Positions 50,132 through 64,000 of a stretch of 64,000 bases of DNA are shown here, one piece after another. How positions within the stretch are numbered: the first letter of the stretch is position 1; each line of letters begins with the position of its first letter. The stretch comes from Ectothiorhodospira haloalkaliphila ATCC 51935 (GTDB lineage: Bacteria; Pseudomonadota; Gammaproteobacteria; Ectothiorhodospirales; Ectothiorhodospiraceae): assembly GCF_000633935.1 (NCBI RefSeq), contig NZ_KK214998.1, positions 944,010 through 1,008,009 on the forward strand, read 5' to 3'. Below the pieces are notes generated by a model, which searched no databases, was not told the origin of the DNA, and was given only the letters and a program-made list of their open reading frames with translations. The position numbers and the translations under genes were made by a program.

Positions 50132-51784
50132 ATGATTCGACGCCACGCACATCGCGATAACCTGATCTGGGCCTCGGGGGCCGGCGCCGCGCCGAGCCCG
50201 GCGGCCACGGTCGGGGATGCGCGCCAGGCGTCCCCCCGCAAGCCTGGGGGGTGGGAGCCTGCGCCCGCGGCCCCGCGTACCGAGGACACAGTCAGCCGCC
50301 CGTCCGTGCAGGACACCGCCCCCCTGGCGCCGAGCCGGGAGCGTCGTCCACCGCATCGGGCACGACGTCACGTGCCGGGCACAGTGACCCAACCGCATCC
50401 GCTGACAAACCGCTCGACCAACGAGCAACTGCGGACTTACGAGCAGGGCGTGCGAGCTGCCTTCGACCAGATCGTGCCCACACTCAAACAGATCTCTGCC
50501 CTGCACTGCGAGCCGGATTTCACCCAGCGGGCCCAGCAACTGGCGCAGCGGGAACTGGGTTTTGAGTTGCCCAACGGTATCCTGGACGATGCCTGGATCG
50601 CCGGCCTGGATCTGCGGCGCCTGTACGCCTGGTCGCTGTTCGAAACCTACCGGCGCATGGCCGATGACTTCTTTGCCCGCGACCCCCTGCGGGGTCGGGA
50701 GACGACGGCCTTTGACGAGTTCCTGCAGTCCTGCGGCTTTCACCTGATGGACATCACGCCCTGCGCCGATGGACGCCTGGCCCATGCCATCAGTTACGTG
50801 CTGCGCTTGCCCATCGGTGCGGTGCGCCGCAAATCCTACGCCGGCACCCTGTTCGACGTGGAGGAGACAGTGGAGAAATGGGTGGAGGTGGAACACCAGC
50901 GCTTCCGGGAGGGCCGGCCCAATACTGCCGATACCTCCACCCGCTATCTCAAGGTGGTGATGTACCACTTCAGCAGCCTTGACCCGGAACATCAGGGCTG
51001 CGCCGCCCACGGCTCCGACGATGGCCTGGCGGCCCGGGCCGGCCTGGAGCGGCTGCACCATTTCCGCCAGGCCATCGAAAACAGTTTCTGCTGCGGCGCC
51101 TCCGTGGCCCTGCTGCTGATCGGACTGGATACGGATACCGACGCGATCCGTGTGCACCTGCCGGATGAACGGGGCGAGATGGACCTGAACCAGTCGGTGG
51201 ATGCGCAAGCGCTGTATGACCAGACCCACAACCTCACGCCCGAGGCCGCCCGGCAGGGCATCCTGGAGGCAGTCTGTGCCGCCGCGCCGGACACCGCCGA
51301 TGAGGGCATGGTGCGCCTGGTGGCGCGCCTGGTGGAAAACAACCTGTCGCAGATCGAGTATGTGCGCACCCTGCAGGGGGGCGGCTACCCGGACGCGGGC
51401 CACGCTGAGCGCTTCATGGCCGTGGGTATCGGTTTTGAGGAAATCCAGCTGCGCAACCTGACCTATTTCGCCTACCTGCACACGGTGGAGGAAGGCGCGC
51501 CGGATCTGGACGTGGGCTGTCGCATCTTCGACGGTCTCAATGTGAGCCACGGCCTGCCCATCCCGGTGGTGGTGCGTTTTGACTACCACGGCCGCGTGCC
51601 GGGAGCCCGGGAGCGGGCCGTGGAGCGGGCACGCCGCCTGGATCGGGCGCTGGCAGATCGTTTCCGCGTCCGCGTCCAGCAAGGCCTGTTGCACCGCATG
51701 CTGGTGGTGCGGGACTGCGATGCAGGATCGGGGCTGGAAGTGGTGTCCACCTCCGTGGATCCGCAGCCGGCGGGAGGACACTGA
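50132..51784 (+). CDS. csoSCA: Carboxysomal carbonic anhydrase CsoSCA
   Basis: A 550-residue protein. The zinc site fits CsoSCA: Cys211 in TPCADGR (with the Asp-Arg pair), His279 in MYHFSSLDPE and Cys290 in HQGCAAHGSDD. The N-terminal 100 residues are disordered and may bind RuBisCO. It converts bicarbonate to CO2 inside the shell. The stop overlaps the csoS4A start (TGATG). Confidence 0.95.
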   Translation: MIRRHAHRDNLIWASGAGAAPSPAATVGDARQASPRKPGGWEPAPAAPRTEDTVSRPSVQDTAPLAPSRERRPPHRARRHVPGTVTQPHPLTNRSTNEQLRTYEQGVRAAFDQIVPTLKQISALHCEPDFTQRAQQLAQRELGFELPNGILDDAWIAGLDLRRLYAWSLFETYRRMADDFFARDPLRGRETTAFDEFLQSCGFHLMDITPCADGRLAHAISYVLRLPIGAVRRKSYAGTLFDVEETVEKWVEVEHQRFREGRPNTADTSTRYLKVVMYHFSSLDPEHQGCAAHGSDDGLAARAGLERLHHFRQAIENSFCCGASVALLLIGLDTDTDAIRVHLPDERGEMDLNQSVDAQALYDQTHNLTPEAARQGILEAVCAAAPDTADEGMVRLVARLVENNLSQIEYVRTLQGGGYPDAGHAERFMAVGIGFEEIQLRNLTYFAYLHTVEEGAPDLDVGCRIFDGLNVSHGLPIPVVVRFDYHGRVPGARERAVERARRLDRALADRFRVRVQQGLLHRMLVVRDCDAGSGLEVVSTSVDPQPAGGH

Positions 51785-54993: not shown

Positions 54994-56151
54994 ATGAACG
55001 TCATTCATTCCAGTGCTATGCTCATGCCTCCCAAAACCCGGCCTGGGTCAAGACATGATCCCGGCTGGCATGTTTCATCCGGCAGGGCGAGCACGGCCAT
55101 TCAGATCCACACCCGACCCATCGACGAACGCATCGGCTGGCTCATTTCGCTGGCAGAAGCCCACAGCGAGGACTTTTGCAGTCCCGCAACCACCCTGGCC
55201 CGGCAGCGTTACCTGGCGCGTCATCCCACCCGCGTGATGGTGATGAAGTGCATGGACGGCCGCGTCCATATCCCCCATGCCACCCACACCCCACTGGGCA
55301 TCATTCAGCCCTTTCGCAGCCTGGGTGGTCGTTTTGACCTGGGCTGGCCTTACCTGGGAGAAGTGATCACTCATGCCGTGGAAAGCGCCACCCGTGCCGG
55401 CCACGGTGTGCTGCTGCTGATCACCTATCATTACTCGCGGGGCGATCACGCCCGGGGCTGTGCGGGCTTTGGCTGCGACACGACCGCCGCCATGGAGCAC
55501 ACGCAGGAGATCTGCGCCCAGGCAGAAGAGCTGTTCGGTGCCGACGGACAAAGCGTGTACCCACTGGTGTGCGGCTTCGAAACCGACAGCGACGCGCTGA
55601 TCATTCACAACCGCCGTGGCGATGCCCTGGATATCTCGTCGCTTTACCACGCCGATGCGGACGATCTGCCCCGACGCCTCCAGACCCTGTGCCCGGACAT
55701 GCCTGCTGGCTTCCAGCGGGATCTTCTGCCGCTACTGCTGGGCAACCTGGACCATGTGGACGCCCTGCGCGGTGCGGATCGGGAACTGGACATCCAGCAT
55801 CGGGAATGGGCCATCTGTGTGGGGCGCGGATTCGATTTCCTGCATCTACCCAATACGGCGCTGATCATCGGCCCTTATAATCCGGATCTTTCAGAGCCCA
55901 TTATCAAGGCTGCGGGCATCATTGCCGCCAACATGGCCGCAGGCCGCATCCCGGATGATGGTTTCCTGTTGCTGACCTCATCACCCTATGAACAGATGGG
56001 AGTGGACCGGGCCCGCGCCCGTCTGAAGTCGCGCTTTTTGTGCGAATTTGCGGCTCAGGTGATTGGCGAGGAGTTCCCGGACCTGGCCCGCCGCATGATT
56101 GCCCGGTCGGCCGTGGTGGACTGGCCTACACGGAGACTGGAGTTGTTGTAG
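54994..56151 (+). CDS. Free-standing CsoSCA-like carbonic anhydrase paralogue
   Basis: A 385-residue protein. The zinc and catalytic residues line up with CsoSCA: Cys86 in MKCMDGRVH (with the Asp-Arg pair), His146 in TYHYSRGDHA and Cys156 in RGCAGFGC. The His to Cys spacing is ten residues against eleven in the operon's CsoSCA. ESATRAGHGVLLLITYHYSR, CGFETDSDALIIHNRRGD and SSPYEQMGVDRARAR are well-formed segments. It lacks the long disordered N-terminus of CsoSCA and has no signal peptide, so it may be cytoplasmic. Start candidates are 54994, 55018 and 55024. Confidence 0.75.
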   Translation: MNVIHSSAMLMPPKTRPGSRHDPGWHVSSGRASTAIQIHTRPIDERIGWLISLAEAHSEDFCSPATTLARQRYLARHPTRVMVMKCMDGRVHIPHATHTPLGIIQPFRSLGGRFDLGWPYLGEVITHAVESATRAGHGVLLLITYHYSRGDHARGCAGFGCDTTAAMEHTQEICAQAEELFGADGQSVYPLVCGFETDSDALIIHNRRGDALDISSLYHADADDLPRRLQTLCPDMPAGFQRDLLPLLLGNLDHVDALRGADRELDIQHREWAICVGRGFDFLHLPNTALIIGPYNPDLSEPIIKAAGIIAANMAAGRIPDDGFLLLTSSPYEQMGVDRARARLKSRFLCEFAAQVIGEEFPDLARRMIARSAVVDWPTRRLELL

Positions 56152-56152
56152 G

Positions 56153-56192
56153 GCTTCACGCAAACGTCACGGCTTGTTCACCGGGCTGACAA
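56153..56192 (+). promoter_or_regulatory. Pho box array before the glycosyltransferase gene
   Basis: Four 7-mers at exact 11-bp spacing: GCTTCAC (56153), ACGTCAC (56164), TGTTCAC (56175) and CTGACAA (56186), compared with the PhoB half-site CTGTCAT/C. Ten bases after the last lies TAGCAT (56203-56208), a suitable -10 box. Confidence 0.65.
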
Positions 56193-56237
56193 CCAACCCG
56201 CCTAGCATCGGGGCAACCTGTCCACAGTGGAAGCCCC

Positions 56238-57479
56238 ATGCAGACTGCCCAACAAACCCGGGAAACTGAGACGACGACCCCAGGCGCGGCCGCGGAAGAG
56301 ACCGAACACCCCTACCTGGCCGCGGTGCCCAGGCAGCGACTGCGCATCGCCATGGTCACGGAAACCTTCCCTCCCGAGATCAATGGCGTGGCCCACACCC
56401 TGCACCAGATGGTGCACAGCATGCTGGAGCGCGGGCATGAGGTTCACCTGATCCGCCCGCGCCAGGGCAAGGGTGACCACGGCACCCTGGCCCCCCGGGA
56501 GGGGCTGCGTGAGCAACTCACCCACGGCCTGCCGATCCCCGGTTACCCCGGCCTGCATTTCGGCCTGCCTGCCCGTGGCGCCATCCGCAAGGCGTGGCGC
56601 GCCAACCCGCCGGACGTGATCTACGTGGCCACCGAAGGCCTGCTGGGCGGCTCCGTGCTGTCCGCGGCCCGGGCCATGGGTATCCCGGTGATCAGCGGCT
56701 TTCACACCAACTTCCACCGCTACAGCCAGTATTACGGCCTGGGGTTCCTGGCGCCGGCGATCAGCTGGTTCCTGCGTCGCTTCCATCACCGCACCCAGTG
56801 CACCCTGGTGCCTACCGACACCCTGGCTCAAGAGCTGCAGGAGCAGGGTTTTGGCACCTGCCGAGTCCTGGCCCGGGGTGTGGACACCCAGCTATTCAAC
56901 CCCGCCCGCCGTCGTCCTGACCTGCGCGCCCAATGGGGACTTGAGCCGGATGACCCAGCGGTGATCTACGTGGGCCGCCTGGCCGCGGAGAAGAATCTGC
57001 ACCTGGCCGTGGAGGCCTTTCGCGCCATGCAGGCCCGCCAGCCCCGGGCCCGATTCATTCTGGTGGGTGATGGACCGGCCGCCGCCGAACTGCGTGAACA
57101 GCACCCGGACCTGATCCTGGCGGGTGTGCACATCGGTGAGGATCTGGCGGGATATTACGCCAGCGGCGACATGTTCCTGTTCCCCTCCACCTCGGACACC
57201 TTCGGCAACGTGGTCCTGGAGGCCATGGCCTCGGGTCTGGCGGTGGTGTCCTACGACTATGCGGCGGGCCGCCAGCATCTGCGCCACGGCGAGAGTGGCA
57301 TGCTGGCCCGCTTCGATGACGCCGAACAGTTCAAGCAACTGGCCACCGAGCTGGTGGCCGATCCCCACACCTGGAGACGCCTGGGTACCCAGGCTCGCGC
57401 CGAGGCCGAGACGGTGGACTGGCGCTGTGAGCACGACCGGCTGGAAGCCCTGTTCCTTGAGTACGCCCAAGCCAAGTGA
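56238..57479 (+). CDS. GT4-family glycosyltransferase, probably a glycolipid synthase
   Basis: A 413-residue protein. The N-terminal Rossmann domain starts RLRIAMVTETFPPEINGVAH; the C-terminal one has VIYVGRLAAEKNLHLAVEAF and the nucleotide-sugar site FPSTSDTFGNVVLEAMASGL. This is the pattern of GT4 enzymes such as SqdX and mannosyl- or glucuronosyl-transferases acting on diacylglycerol. It lies directly after a Pho box array and is followed by a PAP2 phosphatase gene 10 bases later, suggesting synthesis of phosphate-free membrane lipids. Donor and acceptor are not determined. Confidence 0.8.
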   Translation: MQTAQQTRETETTTPGAAAEETEHPYLAAVPRQRLRIAMVTETFPPEINGVAHTLHQMVHSMLERGHEVHLIRPRQGKGDHGTLAPREGLREQLTHGLPIPGYPGLHFGLPARGAIRKAWRANPPDVIYVATEGLLGGSVLSAARAMGIPVISGFHTNFHRYSQYYGLGFLAPAISWFLRRFHHRTQCTLVPTDTLAQELQEQGFGTCRVLARGVDTQLFNPARRRPDLRAQWGLEPDDPAVIYVGRLAAEKNLHLAVEAFRAMQARQPRARFILVGDGPAAAELREQHPDLILAGVHIGEDLAGYYASGDMFLFPSTSDTFGNVVLEAMASGLAVVSYDYAAGRQHLRHGESGMLARFDDAEQFKQLATELVADPHTWRRLGTQARAEAETVDWRCEHDRLEALFLEYAQAK

Positions 57480-57489
57480 GGTGTTCCCC

Positions 57490-58008
57490 ATGCGCATGAT
57501 GCAGCGAATGACCGAAGCCGAACTGCCCCTTTGCCTGGCCTTCAACCGGGCCAATCACCAATGGCTGACCCATCGCACCTTTGCCATGGTCAGCCGCCTG
57601 GGCAACGGGGTGTTCTGGTATGTGCTGATGCTGGCCCTGCCCGTCATCCATGGCCTGTGGGCCCTGCAGGTGAGCCTGCACATGGCCCTGGTGGGCCTGC
57701 TCTGCCTGCCCATCTACAAGCTCCTGAAGCAGACCACGGTGCGCGACCGGCCCTACACACAGAACCAGGACATCCTGCAGAACGTGCCGGTCCTGGACCG
57801 TTTCAGCTTCCCCTCCGGCCATACCATGCACGCGGTGGCCTTCACCATCATCCTGGTGGCCTACCTGCCGGCCTGGGCCTGGCTGGTGGTGCCCTTCACG
57901 GTGATGATCGCCCTCTCCCGCCTGGTGCTGGGTCTGCATTATCCCAGCGACGTGCTGGCAGGCGCCGCCATTGGTGCCCTGGTCGCCAGTGCCAGCCTGA
58001 TGCTTTGA
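57490..58008 (+). CDS. PAP2-family membrane phosphatase
   Basis: A 172-residue protein with about five hydrophobic segments and the three PAP2 motifs: KQTTVRDRP, FSFPSGHTMHAV and SRLVLGLHYPSDVLAG. These enzymes dephosphorylate phosphatidic acid or undecaprenyl pyrophosphate. With the upstream glycosyltransferase in one operon, it could supply diacylglycerol. It is convergent with the pyruvate-kinase-like gene. Confidence 0.85.
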   Translation: MRMMQRMTEAELPLCLAFNRANHQWLTHRTFAMVSRLGNGVFWYVLMLALPVIHGLWALQVSLHMALVGLLCLPIYKLLKQTTVRDRPYTQNQDILQNVPVLDRFSFPSGHTMHAVAFTIILVAYLPAWAWLVVPFTVMIALSRLVLGLHYPSDVLAGAAIGALVASASLML

Positions 58009-58024
58009 CGGCCGGCCCCGCCCC

Positions 58025-59977
58025 TCAATCCGCACACAACCGAAGGGCTCGCAACTGCGAGCTCTTCTTGTGCTGGTGGGCCTGCATGCGCACCAGGATA
58101 TCGTTCAGGGTGTGCACCGCCTCCAGGATATAGGGCCCCTTGTTCAGCATGACGCATTCGGCCCGCCCGGCCATGGCCGCATCGGTGATCTCGGGGCGGG
58201 AGATGGTCCCGCTCCGGGCCAGGGTCTCCAGCACCTGAGTGGCCCAGATCACCGGCACATGGGCCGCCTCGCACAGCCACAGGATCTCCTCCTGGATCTC
58301 CGCCAGCCGCTCGCCCCCGATCTCCACGGCCAGATCCCCGCGGGCGATCATCACCCCCAGGCGGTGACGCCCCAGGGTGGCCAGGATGATCTCGGAGAGA
58401 TTCTCCAGGGCACGGCCCGTCTCGATCTTGGCCACCACCCCAAGCCCGGCGCCGCCACGCCGGGCCAGTTCATCCATGAGAACAACCATGTCCTGGCGGG
58501 ACTCCACGAAGGAGTAACCCACCAGATCCGCATGGGCCACCACGAAGTCCAGGTCCTTCATATCCTGGGGACTCAGCGGCGGCAGGTTCAGTCGAGCGCC
58601 GGGGAAGTTGAGACCCTTGTCCGCCCGAAGGCGACTGCCCTGGGGACGGCAATGGGTGATACGAACCATCACGCCGCTGGCATCCACCGACTCCACCCGG
58701 CCACCGATCTTGCCATCATCGATCCACACCGCCTGCCCCACTTCCAGCAGATCCAGCGCTTCGGGCGCGGAACAGGCGATCCGGGCGCAGCGTGCCAACC
58801 GCCCTTGATCATCCACCAGGGCCGGACGCCCCGGCACCGGGTCGCGGGTCAGGTGCAGCAGGGCGCCCTTGTAGAGGCGAATGTTGACCGGCTCCCGCGT
58901 CAGCCATCCCAGCCGCAGGGACAGCACCGGGCTTAGGTGCCCGTTGGCATCCGGGCGCTTGAGGACGAACTCGGTCTCGTCACTCACATAGGCCCCCTGG
59001 TCCAGGGTAGCCAGCCACCCTCCCTTGGGCAGGGGTTCCACCAGCCGAAGTACCCGGGCCTTGCCACGGGTATCGCGAAAGCGCAGTTCATCCACCGATT
59101 GCAGGCCATCCAGCGTCGCCTGGGGCAATGAGAAGGCATATTGGCCGCGTGCCTGCACCGGGTCCTGCCCCGTGCCTTCGGGCAGCAGGTGGACATGCGC
59201 GGGCTCCGTGACCCTGCCCAGCAGATTGCGGCGGGGCTTGATATGGGTGATGGCCGGCTTGAACTCCAGCGGGCCTGTGCGCAGCTTGTGGCCGCCCAGG
59301 TCCATGAGTACGGTGCACCGCCGCCCCAGTTGCGCCTCGGCGGCACGCAGGTGGCCGATCATGGCTGACCAGGCCTGGGCATCGTCGTGCGCGCAGTTGA
59401 TGCGCGCACAGTCCATGCCCTCCTCCATCAGTTCCATCACCAGTTGGGGATTCACCGCCGCCGCACTGGGCAGCGTGACCATGATGCGCACCTCCCGCGG
59501 ACCCGATGGCGGTCCGAAGAGCTGATCGGCATTGTCGCGCAGGGTGGTTGCACCCGTGTCGTAATCGATGGCGGGCTCGTCTTCCAGACCGGCCACCGGG
59601 CGCCCCGTCAGCTGCCCCAGCAAACGCGTGACCTGATTGATGCTCGCCAGCACATGGGCCTCGGTGCGCCCCAGGGAAGACAGCCCCTGACGGGCCAGGC
59701 CCCGCTGGATGGGGCGCAGATCCAGCGACCGGAAGGCAAGGTAATGGGCCAGGTTACGGGCCGAGAGCGGGACTTCGCCGGGGTAGTCCCGGGAGAACCT
59801 TTCCAGTCGTCGATGCGCCCCCAGCAGAACCTCGGTTCGCAGATTCTGCAGGCCAGCCATCAATGTCTCCAGTGAATCCACTGGGGGTGTGGCAGTTGCA
59901 CTTTGACCGGGGCCGGTTTCATCCATCGGGTGATCCAGAGCGGAGGGATGACTTTCTTCGGAAATGGAATCTTGCAT
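58025..59977 (-). CDS. Pyruvate-kinase-like protein with long N-terminal extension
   Basis: About 650 residues from the ATG at 59977 (MQDSISEESH). Residues about 25-155 form an extension unlike ordinary PK. The PK barrel then follows: IMVTLPSAAAVNPQLVMELM, DLGGHKLRTG, a large insertion, VVAKIETGRALENLSEIILA and MIARGDLAVEIG (Lys, Glu and Asp catalytic residues kept), then WATQVLETLARSGTISRPEI. The usual MLSGETA is MLNKGPY, and the C-terminal allosteric domain is absent. The start at 59977 is chosen because the promoter's transcription start should lie near 60031, past an upstream ATG at 60037. Confidence 0.75.
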   Translation of the reverse strand: MQDSISEESHPSALDHPMDETGPGQSATATPPVDSLETLMAGLQNLRTEVLLGAHRRLERFSRDYPGEVPLSARNLAHYLAFRSLDLRPIQRGLARQGLSSLGRTEAHVLASINQVTRLLGQLTGRPVAGLEDEPAIDYDTGATTLRDNADQLFGPPSGPREVRIMVTLPSAAAVNPQLVMELMEEGMDCARINCAHDDAQAWSAMIGHLRAAEAQLGRRCTVLMDLGGHKLRTGPLEFKPAITHIKPRRNLLGRVTEPAHVHLLPEGTGQDPVQARGQYAFSLPQATLDGLQSVDELRFRDTRGKARVLRLVEPLPKGGWLATLDQGAYVSDETEFVLKRPDANGHLSPVLSLRLGWLTREPVNIRLYKGALLHLTRDPVPGRPALVDDQGRLARCARIACSAPEALDLLEVGQAVWIDDGKIGGRVESVDASGVMVRITHCRPQGSRLRADKGLNFPGARLNLPPLSPQDMKDLDFVVAHADLVGYSFVESRQDMVVLMDELARRGGAGLGVVAKIETGRALENLSEIILATLGRHRLGVMIARGDLAVEIGGERLAEIQEEILWLCEAAHVPVIWATQVLETLARSGTISRPEITDAAMAGRAECVMLNKGPYILEAVHTLNDILVRMQAHQHKKSSQLRALRLCAD

Positions 59978-60053
59978 GGAGTCGGGGCCATGAGGGTCCG
60001 CCGGCGAGTGCGGACCGCGTTGGGAGTGAGACCCCATGAGATAACAGAAAGGC

Positions 60054-60071
60054 GTGACAGGCGCATGACAG
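60054..60071 (-). promoter_or_regulatory. Pho box of the pyruvate-kinase-like gene
   Basis: On the minus strand CTGTCAT, four bases, CTGTCAC: a perfect match to the PhoB half-sites at 11-bp spacing. Ten bases on lies TATCTC (60043-60038), a fair -10 box. Confidence 0.75.
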
Positions 60072-60084
60072 TGCCCGCCGGCCA

Positions 60085-60102
60085 TGGTCAAAAAAACGTC
60101 AT
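60085..60102 (+). promoter_or_regulatory. Pho box of the repeat lipoprotein gene
   Basis: TGGTCAA (60085), AAAA, ACGTCAT (60096), at 11-bp spacing. TAGCAT (60113-60118) lies ten bases downstream, the same -10 sequence and spacing as before the glycosyltransferase. It is back to back with the minus-strand Pho box of the neighbouring gene. Confidence 0.6.
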
Positions 60103-60176
60103 GATTCTACCTTAGCATGGACCGGATCACAGGCTCGCCCCTTTCGATCCCACTCCATACCGAGGACATCTGATCC

Positions 60177-60962
60177 ATGAAACATGCACGCACCGCCCTG
60201 TTCACGGCCCTGGCCGCCGCTCTCGTGGGAGCCGGCTGTCAGAGCACCCCATCCCCTGATGGATCCACGATGGACACCACCACTGCCCAGCAGACAGCCC
60301 CCGAGGCCGCCTTCTCGAAACCCGGCTTCCGGGTCCAGCTGGAGGATGGTCGACTGTGGGTGCTCAAGCAGGGCCAGGAAAAGCCGGATCGCCCGGTGAT
60401 ACTCATCGGCGCCGGCCCCCAGGGCATGACCCTGAAGGCCGTGGACCGCGAAACCGCTCTGGAATACGTGGCCGCCAAACCGGGCTTCGACGTCAGTGTT
60501 GAGGACGGGCGTCTGTGGGTACTTCGTGAAGGTCAGGAGAAGCCCGCCCGCCCCGTGATGCTGATCAATGCCGGTCCGCAGGGCATGACCCTGCGCGCGC
60601 ACGACCGCGAGACCGCCCTGGAATACCTGGCCACCAAGCCGGGCTTTGATGTCAGTGTGGAAGACGGGCGCCTGTGGGTGCTTCGGGAAGGTCAGGAGAA
60701 GCCCGCCCGCCCCGTGATGCTGATCAATGCCGGTCCGCAGGGCATGACCCTGCGCGCGCCTGATCGTGATACGGCCCTGGCCTACCTGGCCACGAAACCA
60801 GGCTACCGGGCGGAAGCCGAAGATGGCCGGGTCTGGATTCTCAAACCGGATCAGGAGAAGACCGGGAAGCACGTAGCCCGCATCGGCGCCGGCCCGCAGG
60901 GCGCCACCCTGCGCGGCGTGGACAGCGAAACCCTGGACCGTTACATGGCCTACCAGCCGTAA
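60177..60962 (+). CDS. Lipoprotein made of four exact 53-residue repeats
   Basis: A 261-residue protein with a lipoprotein signal (LFTALAAALVGAGC; Cys20 would be lipidated). After a short disordered linker it has four tandem units of exactly 53 residues (48-100, 101-153, 154-206, 207-259). Each contains a KPGF start, EDGRLWVL, GQEKPxRPVxLI and AGPQGMTL, then DRETALEYLA. Units 2 and 3 are nearly identical in DNA, a recent duplication. No known family is recognised. Under a Pho box, it may bind or sense something at the envelope. Confidence 0.8.
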   Translation: MKHARTALFTALAAALVGAGCQSTPSPDGSTMDTTTAQQTAPEAAFSKPGFRVQLEDGRLWVLKQGQEKPDRPVILIGAGPQGMTLKAVDRETALEYVAAKPGFDVSVEDGRLWVLREGQEKPARPVMLINAGPQGMTLRAHDRETALEYLATKPGFDVSVEDGRLWVLREGQEKPARPVMLINAGPQGMTLRAPDRDTALAYLATKPGYRAEAEDGRVWILKPDQEKTGKHVARIGAGPQGATLRGVDSETLDRYMAYQP

Positions 60963-60974
60963 ACGGCAAAAATG

Positions 60975-61003
60975 GATCAGGCCCGCAACGCGGGCCTGAT
61001 CCG
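60975..61003 (+). terminator. Bidirectional terminator-like hairpin
   Basis: A perfect 13-bp stem (GGATCAGGCCCGC, AAC loop, complement) follows the lipoprotein stop, with a weak GGGTTT tail. It lies between convergent genes and could serve both. Confidence 0.6.
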
Positions 61004-61065
61004 GGTTTGAAGCCCTCCCCCCGTCCATTCCGGAGGAAGGCAAACACCATCACCTGCACTTGCGA

Positions 61066-62868
61066 TCAGCGCATTCCACGTTCGCTGAAGGCCCGCTCCA
61101 GCCGCTCGTGCACCCGGTCACGGATGCTCTGCCCCAGGTTGGTTGGCTGGGAGACGCCACAATGGCGATTCCACATCACCGGCCGTTGCATGATCTCGAT
61201 GGCCTGAGCGGGCACGAAGGTGCGGCCCTCGCCACCACCTGCCAACGGGGAATGCACCACCAGACCTTCCAACTGGCAGGTGTCATCTCCGCGCTGCAGC
61301 ACATCGGTACCGTTCACAAGACGCCACTCACCCAGGGTGGCCCCCGTGTCATCCACGACGGCCTCGGGGAAGTGCTCCTGAACATCCACGAAAAGGCGCT
61401 GATTCAGACCGCTGGGATGGGTCAGCGAAAGATTCAGACGCATCGCCTTGCCCATGATCTGGCCGATATCCGCATTATCCACATAGCCGGTGGGAGCACC
61501 GGGGCCGTAGCTCCACAGGGGCACATCCTCCCCGGAGTGACCGTGGGTGGTCCAGCCGAAAATGGTGTGGTTGTCGTTGACCACCTTGATGATGGCCCGC
61601 TGCAGACCGCGGATGGACTGCTCATCGCGGATGGTCGCCAGGTCGTCATCCGACAAGTGGATATTCCAGTACTTGGCCACCGTGTCACGGATGTCGCCAT
61701 CAGACGGGTTTCTCGGCAGCTGCGCACTGAGGAAGTTGGCCGTCACCTGCATCCCCTGGAGGGGTTCGATCACCCGCTCGATGGAGGTACGGGTGTAGTT
61801 GCCACTGCTGGCCCAGTTACCCAGGGCGAGTGCACCGGTGTTGTGGTCAGGCATGACCACCACCATGGTCTGGCCGTCGCGCTTGGCAAAATCCAGAGCC
61901 AGGCCAACCGTATCGTCAAATTCCAGGAAATCCTGGAGATGATAGATGACGTCATTGGAGTGACCCGCCCAGTCAACCTGGCTCCCTTCCACCATCAGGA
62001 AGAAGCCATCCCGATCCTGGGACAGGATATCCAGGGCCTTGGCCGTCATCTCCGACAACGAGGGTTCCGCCAGGGCCTGTTCGTGCAGACTCACGTCATA
62101 GTCGTGGCCGTTTTCCCGCAGATACCGACGGTCCAGTTCCGGCATCATGCTGCTGGAAGCAAACAGGCCCCAGACGCGATCGGAATGGATGCCATGCAGG
62201 TCATCGGCATGGTCGATGACCTGATAACCGCGGTCGTGCAAGACCTGCCGGAGATTTTCGCCATCGTCCCGCGAGCCGCCCATGCTCCTGGGCAACAGGT
62301 GCCGGCTACCGCCCCCGAAGACCACATCCAGGTTCTGGTAGACCATGTGCTTCATGATCTCGTTCTCCTTGCCGCGGGCGTCCACGTGGGCCGTGTAGCT
62401 AGCCGGGGTGGCATGACTGATACGCGAGGTGGCCACCACCCCCGTGGCCTTGCCCGCCAATTGGGCCCCTTCCAGCAGCGTGGCCAGGGGACGGTATTCA
62501 AACCAATCCCAGTCCACTCCCTCGGGCAACTGGTAGTTGCTCAGGATATCGTAGCTACGCGGCGCCATGCCGATATGTGGCTCGGAGGTCTTGTAACCGG
62601 TGGCAAACGCGGTACCCGCCGCCGCCGAGCCGGTGATGACCGAGTTGGTCATGCTGGTATTCACCATGCCCGTGGCAATCTCATCCAATGCCAGGGGCTC
62701 GCCCCGATAGAGCCGCCCCAAGGTCACCACCGACTGGGACTGACCATCCGGTATCAACACAATCACGTTCTTGGGCATTGCGGCCTGAGCCGGAGCCATG
62801 GCCCAAACCAGGGCGACGGTGGTGACCACCGCCACGGTTGAAGATCGAAAACGCATTCGCACACCCAT
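61066..62868 (-). CDS. phoA: Periplasmic alkaline phosphatase, PhoA type
   Basis: About 600 residues with a Sec signal peptide (VAVVTTVALVWAMAPAQA). Active-site motifs are NVIVLIPDGQSQS (metal Asp), TNSVITGSAAAGTAFATGYK (Ser nucleophile), FLMVEGSQVDWAGHSND, VVMPDHNTG and GWTTHGHSGEDVPLWSYGP. It releases phosphate from organic esters in the periplasm. The start at 62868 (MGVRMRFRSS) was chosen; 62889 and 62856 are alternatives. A Pho box array lies about 150 bases upstream. Confidence 0.9.
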   Translation of the reverse strand: MGVRMRFRSSTVAVVTTVALVWAMAPAQAAMPKNVIVLIPDGQSQSVVTLGRLYRGEPLALDEIATGMVNTSMTNSVITGSAAAGTAFATGYKTSEPHIGMAPRSYDILSNYQLPEGVDWDWFEYRPLATLLEGAQLAGKATGVVATSRISHATPASYTAHVDARGKENEIMKHMVYQNLDVVFGGGSRHLLPRSMGGSRDDGENLRQVLHDRGYQVIDHADDLHGIHSDRVWGLFASSSMMPELDRRYLRENGHDYDVSLHEQALAEPSLSEMTAKALDILSQDRDGFFLMVEGSQVDWAGHSNDVIYHLQDFLEFDDTVGLALDFAKRDGQTMVVVMPDHNTGALALGNWASSGNYTRTSIERVIEPLQGMQVTANFLSAQLPRNPSDGDIRDTVAKYWNIHLSDDDLATIRDEQSIRGLQRAIIKVVNDNHTIFGWTTHGHSGEDVPLWSYGPGAPTGYVDNADIGQIMGKAMRLNLSLTHPSGLNQRLFVDVQEHFPEAVVDDTGATLGEWRLVNGTDVLQRGDDTCQLEGLVVHSPLAGGGEGRTFVPAQAIEIMQRPVMWNRHCGVSQPTNLGQSIRDRVHERLERAFSERGMR

Positions 62869-63020
62869 CACACACCACCTCTTCGACAATCGTCGTTCAG
62901 ATCACTGGAATCCGGATGGCCGAAACGGCCCCCGGAGGATGCCGCGCGGTGAACGCCGCCCCGTCCACTGCCATGGGGCAGTCACTCATCCACGCTGCAG
63001 GTCGACCCTATGGGTGCTAT

Positions 63021-63060
63021 ATGACGGGTAGGTTTTGAATGCTTGACACTCTATTGACAG
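63021..63060 (-). promoter_or_regulatory. Pho box array of the alkaline phosphatase gene
   Basis: Minus strand: CTGTCAA (63060-63054), GTGTCAA (63049-63043), a weak unit TCAAAAC, and CCGTCAT (63027-63021), all at 11-bp spacing. Ten bases on lies TAGGGT (63010-63005). The first unit overlaps the last codons of the sulfotransferase gene. Confidence 0.75.
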
Positions 63061-63764
63061 GTCACGGGAGTGCGAGCCACATCACATTTTCCGATGGAAC
63101 CGCGCAGATCTCCGCCGAGCGGATAATCCAGGGTCCTCATGTGATCTCCCAGATACCGGTCGAAGACCTCCAGTTGCGCCGGTGTCAATTCCCGCTGATA
63201 ACGATGCCGCGAGTCATCCCGCACGGTGTTGGAGCGGGCGATCTTGTAGTCGCCGCCGTGGAGGATGTCGAAGGTCTGGAAGGGGTAGAGTGTTTCGTGG
63301 GGCAGGTCCAGGTAGTTCATCAGGCCCGCCAGCGTGGCATCGGGCCTGGCCACCAGGTCTTCGTAGTGGATCCGATACCAGGGATCCGGATCATCGAGAT
63401 AGGTGTCGTAGATACGCCGCCAGCGCTTGAGCAGGCCCACGTCGATCCCCTCCTCCCTGCGACCCCGCCTCCAGAGCAGATAGGCATACCCCGACTCCAC
63501 GGAGGACAGATAGGCATCCCGAGGGTCTCGGGCCAGCCAGATACGTCGATCGTAGCGATCCCAGAGCCGCACGTGTCGCTGCAGATAAAGCAGGTCAACG
63601 GGCTTGATGCAGATCATGCCGGGTGGCTGCAGCCCCAGTGCAATGCGGACCAGTGCCCAGTTGGAACTGATGTCGCTGTAGGCACGGGCCTGGGAATGGC
63701 CAGAGAGGATGTGGGCCAGCAGGGTGCTGCCCGAACGCATGGAATAGCCGATGATGACTCGCAT
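63051..63764 (-). CDS. Sulfotransferase-family protein
   Basis: A 237-residue protein with PAPS-binding motifs: the 5' phosphosulfate loop GYSMRSGSTLLAHILSG and the 3' phosphate loop WLARDPRDAYLSSVESGYAY. This is the bacterial Stf0/sulfotransferase-3-like fold. The acceptor is unknown. Its stop coincides with the Pho box of the next gene, and a single CTGTCAT half-site lies about 50 bases before its own start. Confidence 0.8.
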   Translation of the reverse strand: MRVIIGYSMRSGSTLLAHILSGHSQARAYSDISSNWALVRIALGLQPPGMICIKPVDLLYLQRHVRLWDRYDRRIWLARDPRDAYLSSVESGYAYLLWRRGRREEGIDVGLLKRWRRIYDTYLDDPDPWYRIHYEDLVARPDATLAGLMNYLDLPHETLYPFQTFDILHGGDYKIARSNTVRDDSRHRYQRELTPAQLEVFDRYLGDHMRTLDYPLGGDLRGSIGKCDVARTPVTCQ

Positions 63765-63875
63765 GAGCGTGACACTCCTGAGTCGTGAACCAGCGACTCA
63801 GGGTAATGGCCCCACATGACAGCAGGATAAACCCGGCACCGCAAAAAGCGTTGCACTCACGCAACACCTGTGGTG

Positions 63876-63915
63876 ATTTCATCACAACTTCATGGTTTGT
63901 TCACGGCATTTTAAC
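63876..63915 (+). promoter_or_regulatory. Pho box array before the gene at the right edge
   Basis: ATTTCAT (63876), ACTTCAT (63887), TGTTCAC (63898) and the weak TTTTAAC (63909), all at 11-bp spacing. CATATT (63926-63931) follows ten bases after the last unit as a -10 box. Confidence 0.65.
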
Positions 63916-63992
63916 GCTGCACCGCCATATTTCTCCCCGGTTAGACAGGCTCGGGACAGCCTTTCCACTCATAGACTTGGGGAGTCATTCAC

Positions 63993-64000
63993 ATGCATCA
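63993..64000 (+). CDS. Start of a CDS cut by the window edge, probably phosphate-related
   Basis: ATGCATCA at the last eight bases, eight bases after a strong GGGGAG. The only evidence for its identity is the Pho box array and the neighbouring alkaline phosphatase; pstS would fit. Confidence 0.45.

Follow-up and report, generated by a model that had tools for sequence, protein, structure and literature searches.

Does the right-hand end of this stretch of Ectothiorhodospira haloalkaliphila ATCC 51935 DNA, positions 56,153 to 64,000 of the 64,000-nucleotide window analysed (contig NZ_KK214998.1, positions 944,010 to 1,008,009), hold a set of promoters controlled by the phosphate regulator PhoB, and which genes stand behind them? 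In the classic enterobacterial Pho regulon, with pstSCAB-phoU, phoA and a porin gene as its core, the sites are 11-bp repeats of the form CTGTCAY-N4-CTGTCAY with a -10 element ten bases downstream; in E. coli PhoB promoters, this 10-nt distance puts the last unit where PhoB replaces the -35 element. The original prediction claimed five such arrays here, and a script verified their coordinates, strands and 11-bp steps as well as the gap of exactly 10 nt between each last unit and a -10-like hexamer. We conclude that the five PhoB-like arrays are real, and that the stretch is very probably the left part of a PhoB-controlled island for scavenging inorganic phosphate (Pi) and remodelling lipids, which includes a pyruvate kinase switch. 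The arrays and hexamers are as follows, with scores from the matrix scan described below.

56153..56192, plus strand: array of four units (GCTTCAC/ACGTCAC/TGTTCAC/CTGACAA) before the apparent operon of a glycosyltransferase (GT) gene and a PAP2-superfamily phosphatase gene; matrix score 13.1
56203..56208, plus strand: TAGCAT, -10-like hexamer of the GT promoter, 10 nt 3' of the array; same in 6/6 aligned
60054..60071, minus strand: array of two units (CTGTCAT/CTGTCAC) before a second pyruvate kinase gene; matrix score 14.8
60038-60043, minus strand: TATCTC, -10-like hexamer of the kinase promoter, 10 nt 3' of the array
60085..60102, plus strand: array of two units (TGGTCAA/ACGTCAT) before a repeat-lipoprotein gene; matrix score 7.9
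60113..60118, plus strand: TAGCAT, -10-like hexamer of the lipoprotein promoter, 10 nt 3' of the array
63021..63060, minus strand: array before the alkaline phosphatase gene phoA (CTGTCAA/GTGTCAA/TCAAAAC/CCGTCAT); score 10.4 for the first two units
63005-63010, minus strand: TAGGGT, -10-like hexamer of the phoA promoter, 10 nt 3' of the array
63876..63915, plus strand: array of four units (ATTTCAT/ACTTCAT/TGTTCAC/TTTTAAC) before a porin gene; matrix score 12.9
63926..63931, plus strand: CATATT, -10-like hexamer of the porin promoter, 10 nt 3' of the array; same in 3/3 aligned

The recurrence of TAGCAT at identical spacing, at 56203-56208 and 60113-60118, was likewise verified. The arrays and their spacing hold; the phoA and porin arrays are partly degenerate, and three details are weaker than had been claimed. 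The third phoA unit, TCAAAAC, scores -9.4 and is no PhoB unit, so that the phoA array consists of two units, a hole and one unit; 10 bp of this array are shared with the 3' end of a sulfotransferase gene. Low scores also mark the last unit of the porin array (0.5) and the first of the lipoprotein array (2.8), and the hexamers TATCTC of the kinase promoter (-1.0) and TAGGGT of the phoA promoter (0.1) are poor.

A genome-wide search with the plain consensus CTGTCAYN4CTGTCAY, allowing up to two mismatches, proved too blunt (51 matches versus 35 in a backwards control), so we used a matrix instead. The half-site matrix took the classic consensus as its seed and was trained on 30 pstS promoters of the same family, that of E. 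haloalkaliphila included; the -10 matrix was built from the pstS hexamers together with the pstC and ABC-transporter hexamers of the E. haloalkaliphila genome. None of the five tested sites was in the training data. The five arrays were the top five sites of the 64-kb window (14.8, 13.1, 12.9, 10.4 and 7.9), and the sixth site scored 3.1; the phoA value of 10.4 comes from the first two units alone and leaves out the hexamer at 63005-63010. The original prediction had named scores no better than random as its refutation, and no refutation came from this ranking with an independently trained matrix. Under a second-order Markov null, 0.33 sites scoring at least 7.88 are expected per 64 kb and 0.04 in 7.85 kb, and the probability of at least five such sites is about 8e-10 in 7.85 kb and 2e-5 over the whole window. 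The reversed window held no site scoring at least 6 and two scoring at least 4. We also built a 34-nt sequence-only model from 35 training sites, which included the pstS and pstC sites of E. haloalkaliphila and relatives' sites of the tested genes. With filters off, three of the five arrays were its best three sites in the window, phoA and porin being missed.

We next turn to relatives, for which promoters were scanned in 22 stretches (two from E. haloalkaliphila and 20 from relatives; below, G denotes genomes, C contigs and L loci), with an array called at a score of at least 6 and the own genome included in each count. An array was found upstream of GT in 12 of 13 stretches, or 11 of 12 without G044, whose GT match is at 27% only; upstream of the second kinase at 13 of 15 family loci, two more (G008 and G042) having been left out as too near contig ends; and upstream of the lipoprotein gene in six of the seven orthologues in fetched islands. 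The corresponding counts were 9/11 for pstC, 2/3 for phoA, 2/4 for the porin gene and 2/7 for a gene encoding a PlcP-like protein, and 9/9 for pstS by construction, as the matrix was trained on pstS. Operon-internal genes, which served as controls, had no array (PAP2 0/13, phoU 0/11, pstB 0/12, pstA 0/11), and the reversed-sequence control gave no array for any gene scanned. The canonical pyruvate kinase had an array at none of the 30 family loci fetched (of 52 matches), as against 13 of 15 for the second kinase (Fisher 1.4e-9).

Alignments indicate that the arrays and -10 boxes are retained while the flanks vary between species. At the GT promoter, CTAGCATCGG, 3' of the array, is unchanged in 6/6 aligned genus members. 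At the phoA promoter, TAGGGTCGACC and parts of the half-sites are kept in G009, where the first units of the E. haloalkaliphila array are partly changed. The porin units and CATATT are largely kept in G007 and G009, and the footprint of array and -10 box is kept across the four genomes aligned for the divergent kinase/lipoprotein intergenic region. The TAGCAT of the lipoprotein promoter recurs in G007, G003, G005, G002 and G001.

The genome encodes a PhoB (361.6 bits, cut-off 296.2), and the phoB promoter has a similar array (10.9). The genes of the island that lie in the window are these.

56238..57479, plus strand: GT4-family glycosyltransferase (Pfam Glyco_trans_1_4, 8e-30)
57490..58008, plus strand: PAP2-superfamily phosphatase (Pfam PAP2, 2e-22)
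58025..59977, minus strand: second pyruvate kinase, PRK14725/NF011314 (724.9 bits, cut-off 642)
60177..60962, plus strand: lipoprotein with four repeats of about 51 amino acids (DGRLWVL...GPQGMTLRA), from the translation and orthologues
61066..62889, minus strand: alkaline phosphatase PhoA, start codon uncertain (Pfam Alk_phosphatase, 2.7e-76)
63051..63764, minus strand: sulfotransferase (Pfam Sulfotransfer_3), membership uncertain, no own array
63993..64000, plus strand: start of a Porin_4 porin gene that continues past the window (L009:7994-9088; Pfam Porin_4, 1.6e-41)

To the right of the window follow the Porin_4 porin, an OlsB-like acyltransferase, an LpxH/PlcP-like metallophosphoesterase and an MNT/HEPN pair; then PhoU, PstB, PstA, PstC and PstS, with phoU-pstBACS 3.9-10.7 kb past the window end and the PstB, PstA and PstC labels given by eye and position; and then an ABC transporter whose binding protein is 2-aminoethylphosphonate-like, an OprP-type porin, a lysophospholipase and a 5'-nucleotidase. 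Similarly designed arrays precede pstS (28.4), pstC (17.7) and the ABC transporter genes (12.3); that of the 5'-nucleotidase is borderline (7.4), and that of the OprP-type porin is not convincing (4.0). Between the GT promoter and pstS, the island covers about 19 kb, or up to about 29 kb counting the OprP-type porin and the 5'-nucleotidase. The proposal of a local phosphate-starvation island is thus supported by the array ranking, the in-register conservation, PhoB, and the presence of phoA and phoU-pstBACS, with the island larger than the window.

This gene content recurs. GT, PAP2, kinase, OlsB-like, PlcP-like and phoU-pst genes lie in one stretch in E. haloalkaliphila, G009, G038, G029 and G007, although OlsB is incomplete in G007. 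The first five are also together in G023 and G031, with no pst gene in the stretch fetched, and other relatives show parts of the set. In a second genus, the GT, PAP2, kinase, OlsB-like and PlcP-like proteins are 49-58% identical to those of E. haloalkaliphila. The sulfotransferase gene adjoins phoA in E. haloalkaliphila, G009 and G001, and had no array of its own at either of the two loci scanned.

Two proteins of the island had been called poorly understood. The one on the minus strand can be recognised as a second pyruvate kinase; the other is the repeat lipoprotein. The kinase start at 59977 is the one we chose in a reading frame that stays open to 60091. Like the NF011314/PRK14725 family, the protein scores over the cut-off and keeps the catalytic residues; it differs from the canonical allosteric pyruvate kinase, encoded elsewhere in the genome (C4:1059022, 532.9 bits), by the absence of the C-terminal allosteric domain, since profile matches stop in the barrel (Pfam 315/328, TIGR01064 341/476) and the protein ends 12 to 38 residues past them. 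Its structural model (mean confidence, pLDDT, 88) predicts a helical N-terminal domain and a barrel with an enlarged B-domain, with no C-domain, and all 50 Foldseek matches listed for this model are pyruvate kinases. Across 56 aligned sequences, Arg192, Asn194, Lys517, Glu519, Arg546-Gly-Asp548 and Thr580, which we take to be the catalytic residues of ordinary pyruvate kinases, do not vary; Ala replaces the Ser of the usual N-x-S-H motif; and Lys231, in a D-L-A-G-P-K motif, is nearly invariant. We assigned Lys231 by eye to position 117. Kinases with Lys117 are reported to be K+-independent (PMC5501398, PMC8835810; on the same topic, PMC4284704), and the second kinase is predicted to be K+-independent as well.

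Arrays upstream of this kinase are found beyond the island. In G012 and G015, the kinase has an array and no other island protein matched within the 16 kb fetched. In a wider set of kinase loci, the best 80 of 583 (79 scanned, one being too short; array call at least 4), we observed an array upstream of the kinase at 15 of 79 loci, compared with 0 of 79 in reversed sequence and, elsewhere within these loci, 1 of 353 places. Fourteen of these 15 loci are from Proteobacteria or proteobacterial groups and one is from Acidobacteria; the wider set overlaps the family set, L139 being the same genome as G038. Among 397 genomes drawn from the phylum, the kinase was matched in 17 at E 1e-80, nine of them over the cut-off, own genome included. 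The kinase lies near pst genes in Halorhodospira (L143), Hymenobacter (L177) and Nitrospirales (L184), and near genes for PhoA and a PlcP-like protein in L144; its relatives in distant phyla adjoin pst, phoU, ppk, ppx or CHAD genes.

We found no link of PRK14725 or any other pyruvate kinase to a Pho box or PhoB in a literature search that left most subscription papers outside its scope, and the accessible text of PMC7244524, PMC12889132, PMC12604563, PMC6022917, PMC10345050, PMC8227402, PMC4448153 and PMC9947105 describes no Pho box before a pyruvate kinase gene. Pyruvate kinase and glyceraldehyde-3-phosphate dehydrogenase proteins are up under phosphorus depletion in Microcystis (PMC8227402), and pyk transcription differs between phosphate conditions in one Accumulibacter (PMC12604563), the enzyme family being named in the accessible part of neither paper. 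The second kinase, apparently under phosphate control, is a new element of the island.

The GT is likely a lipid (diacylglycerol) glycosyltransferase of the Agt type; its two best NCBIfam matches are lipid glycosyltransferases, far below cut-off (142.7 of 480 and 85.3 of 400 bits). The PAP2 gene lies beside GT in 12 of 13 stretches with both genes (in G044, the 27% GT match is elsewhere) and is apparently part of the same operon. The PlcP-like protein belongs to Metallophos and is LpxH-like, below the LpxH cut-offs (48 of 134 and 38.3 of 190.35 bits). The acyltransferase matches Acetyltransf_5 (6.7e-33) and, being under the OlsB equivalog cut-offs (163.2 of 350 and 162.5 of 320 bits), is labelled no more than OlsB-like. 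The island resembles the PlcP-Agt systems of marine bacteria, Pseudomonas aeruginosa (PA3219-PA3218/PA0842) and Methylosinus. Within the text available, Pho boxes precede the glycosyltransferase and PlcP-type metallophosphoesterase genes in PMC4796936 and PMC8528852, a feature shared with the island, and the passage of PMC9239053 that describes Methylosinus plcP-agt gives no Pho box. Unlike in those systems, the GT of the island adjoins PAP2, the PlcP-like gene lies about 8 kb further along, next to the OlsB-like gene, and the set also takes in a pyruvate kinase and a repeat lipoprotein.

The lipoprotein has, by eye, a signal peptide with a lipobox, followed by the repeats, of which orthologues have two (G009, G002, G003), three (G005) or four (E. 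haloalkaliphila, G001, G008, G029) copies. The gene is present in 11 of 47 family genomes, own included; in G007, the frame is cut short within the second repeat (L106:1501-1926). The structural model gives each repeat four strands and a helix (pLDDT about 92), and comparison of the model with solved structures gave no significant match, which does not imply a new fold. Identification as an acylphosphatase was dropped (NCBIfam, 31.2 of 98 bits). It presumably takes part in this phosphate response too, as a protein of the envelope.

We propose the following mechanism, in which we infer PhoB dependence from sequence. At low Pi, phosphorylated PhoB would bind the arrays, take the place of the -35 element and recruit sigma70. 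PhoA, the porins and Pst would scavenge Pi, while the PlcP-like enzyme and PAP2 would release membrane phosphate, making diacylglycerol that the GT4 enzyme would glycosylate; the OlsB-like enzyme would start ornithine lipids. The step from phosphoenolpyruvate to pyruvate would be switched to a kinase without the allosteric C-domain and with the Lys for K+-independence. Our best guess is that the second kinase keeps carbon moving to pyruvate, and provides ATP without free Pi, when oxidative phosphorylation is Pi-limited. The 11-bp direct repeats, the -10 spacing and the core genes are those of the classic enterobacterial Pho regulon; arrays of up to four units, degenerate half-sites, and lipid and glycolytic genes set the island apart from it. 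Taken by itself, the Pho cluster belongs to a known type, and the second kinase, apparently phosphate-controlled, and repeat lipoprotein are its novel parts.

Several observations weigh against this interpretation. About 18 chance sites scoring at least 7.88 are expected in 3.45 Mb, so that a single site is not decisive genome-wide and the argument therefore rests on clustering and conservation rather than on single scores. Genome-wide, the 34-nt model gave eight weak matches (E 0.13 to 9; 150 of 696 candidates scored): pstS, pstC, kinase, GT, three sites elsewhere, and C4:1029734, at the far side of the island, where it falls in the start region of an EAL/GGDEF gene. The phoA, porin and lipoprotein sites are not among these eight, and given the weak E-values and three of five sites missed, the model was used for ranking only. 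The GT, PlcP-like and OlsB-like proteins all fall below their NCBIfam equivalog cut-offs, and we infer their roles for that reason. An array precedes the OlsB-like gene at two of eight loci (G038 and G029), E. haloalkaliphila not among them; the E. haloalkaliphila PlcP-like site (12.1) lies mostly within the coding end of OlsB, and a site is missing at five of seven loci. Only 11 of 30 fetched GT loci have an array on the right strand, eight of them in kinase-bearing genomes, and in G002, G003 and G005, the GT is on another contig and lacks one. As an accessory enzyme, the kinase is present in 22 of 77 genomes (the own genome counted); its loci in G029 and G043 are the two of 15 in the family without an array, and 64 of the 79 scanned in the wider set have no detectable array. 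Arrays on the opposite strand, at seven of seven lipoprotein and nine of 15 kinase loci, are as expected of divergent promoters, and at the latter they leave direction unproven. Finally, a sensor-kinase cluster occurs beside the kinase as frequently as a CHAD cluster (8 of 80 loci).

CHAD genes bear on the alternative that survives best, in which the kinase serves polyphosphate metabolism, providing ATP for polyphosphate or taking part in polyphosphate use, and not a Pi-sparing glycolytic switch. In raw counts over the 80 loci, its neighbours include CHAD at eight (Pfam in all eight, with CYTH also in five), Ppx at four (all confirmed) and PhoU at four, with PPK1 in L142; six of the eight CHAD loci also have an array (L144, L155, L165, L176, L194 and L197). 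We consider this role unlikely, although it retains some weight: within the family, the kinase neighbours that recur are lipid-remodelling genes, and the residues taken to be catalytic in ordinary pyruvate kinases are invariant in the second kinase. The alternative concerns the role of the kinase only and is therefore compatible with the island.

It is very improbable that the arrays serve a different regulator of the OmpR family whose direct-repeat site resembles that of PhoB. The genome does encode two further full-length PhoB-like regulators (211.3 and 183 bits), both under the PhoB cut-off of 296.2; however, the matrix derives from pstS promoters, phoB, pstS and pstC share the array design, and many genes behind the arrays are phosphate genes. 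Least probable of all is that only phoA, pst and porin respond to phosphate, the arrays of the kinase and lipoprotein genes having arisen by chance or as a side effect of the divergent layout. This might be suggested by the weak lipoprotein site (7.9), by the lipoprotein gene of G029, which lacks an array and is on a different contig from the kinase gene, and by the array-less loci of the wider kinase set. Against it, the kinase array stands at 13 of 15 family loci, in two cases with no other island gene found around it, and at none of the 30 canonical-kinase loci fetched; it is enriched in the wider set relative to other places in the same loci; and the lipoprotein array with TAGCAT is present in six genomes.

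Beyond the PhoB-controlled island itself, we tentatively put forward, with rather more doubt than confidence, that the short, K+-independent kinase is a recurrent PhoB-switched enzyme of phosphate starvation in several phyla, an isoenzyme released from the usual allosteric control that would make ATP and drain carbon into pyruvate with no need of free Pi, alongside glycolipid and ornithine-lipid replacement, and that the sulfotransferase might make the glycolipids anionic. Should PhoB control the kinase, the response of many bacteria to phosphate starvation would go beyond scavenging and lipid exchange to a programmed change in the final glycolytic step. This would tie phosphate stress to carbon flow and the supply of energy, notably in bacteria that fix carbon. 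The island would also give the PRK14725 kinases and the repeat lipoprotein a phosphate context, none having been found before in the libraries and the accessible literature searched.

Three further observations concern sites and genes in and around such islands. A strong two-unit array with a TAGGCT -10 hexamer (score 18.0) lies at G000:C1:110834-110851 (L237:1516-1533), within the coding sequence of a membrane protein judged by eye to be a Na/Pi cotransporter; it is a possible intragenic PhoB site. The MNT/HEPN-type nucleotidyltransferase pair (L009:11018-11808) lies between the PlcP-like gene and phoU. In G038, an ArsJ-type glyceraldehyde-3-phosphate dehydrogenase gene (L126:9282-10295, 517.2 of 450 bits) stands between the OlsB-like and PlcP-like genes; its product might serve in arsenate handling or be a second glycolytic enzyme of that island.

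The island had also been described as lying next to the carboxysome locus. The adjacency is there and may be incidental: the five island genes occur together in four genomes of the second genus (G023, G029, G031 and G038), and those stretches, which reach only about 0.4-4.9 kb upstream of GT, have no counterpart of the gene at 54994-56151. The full carboxysome shell carbonic anhydrase CsoSCA is encoded at 50132-51784 (657.8 bits). The protein encoded at 54994-56151, 385 amino acids long, matches the model of that carbonic anhydrase weakly (32.6 of 241 bits), and its match in G001 (63%) adjoins phoU (L123).

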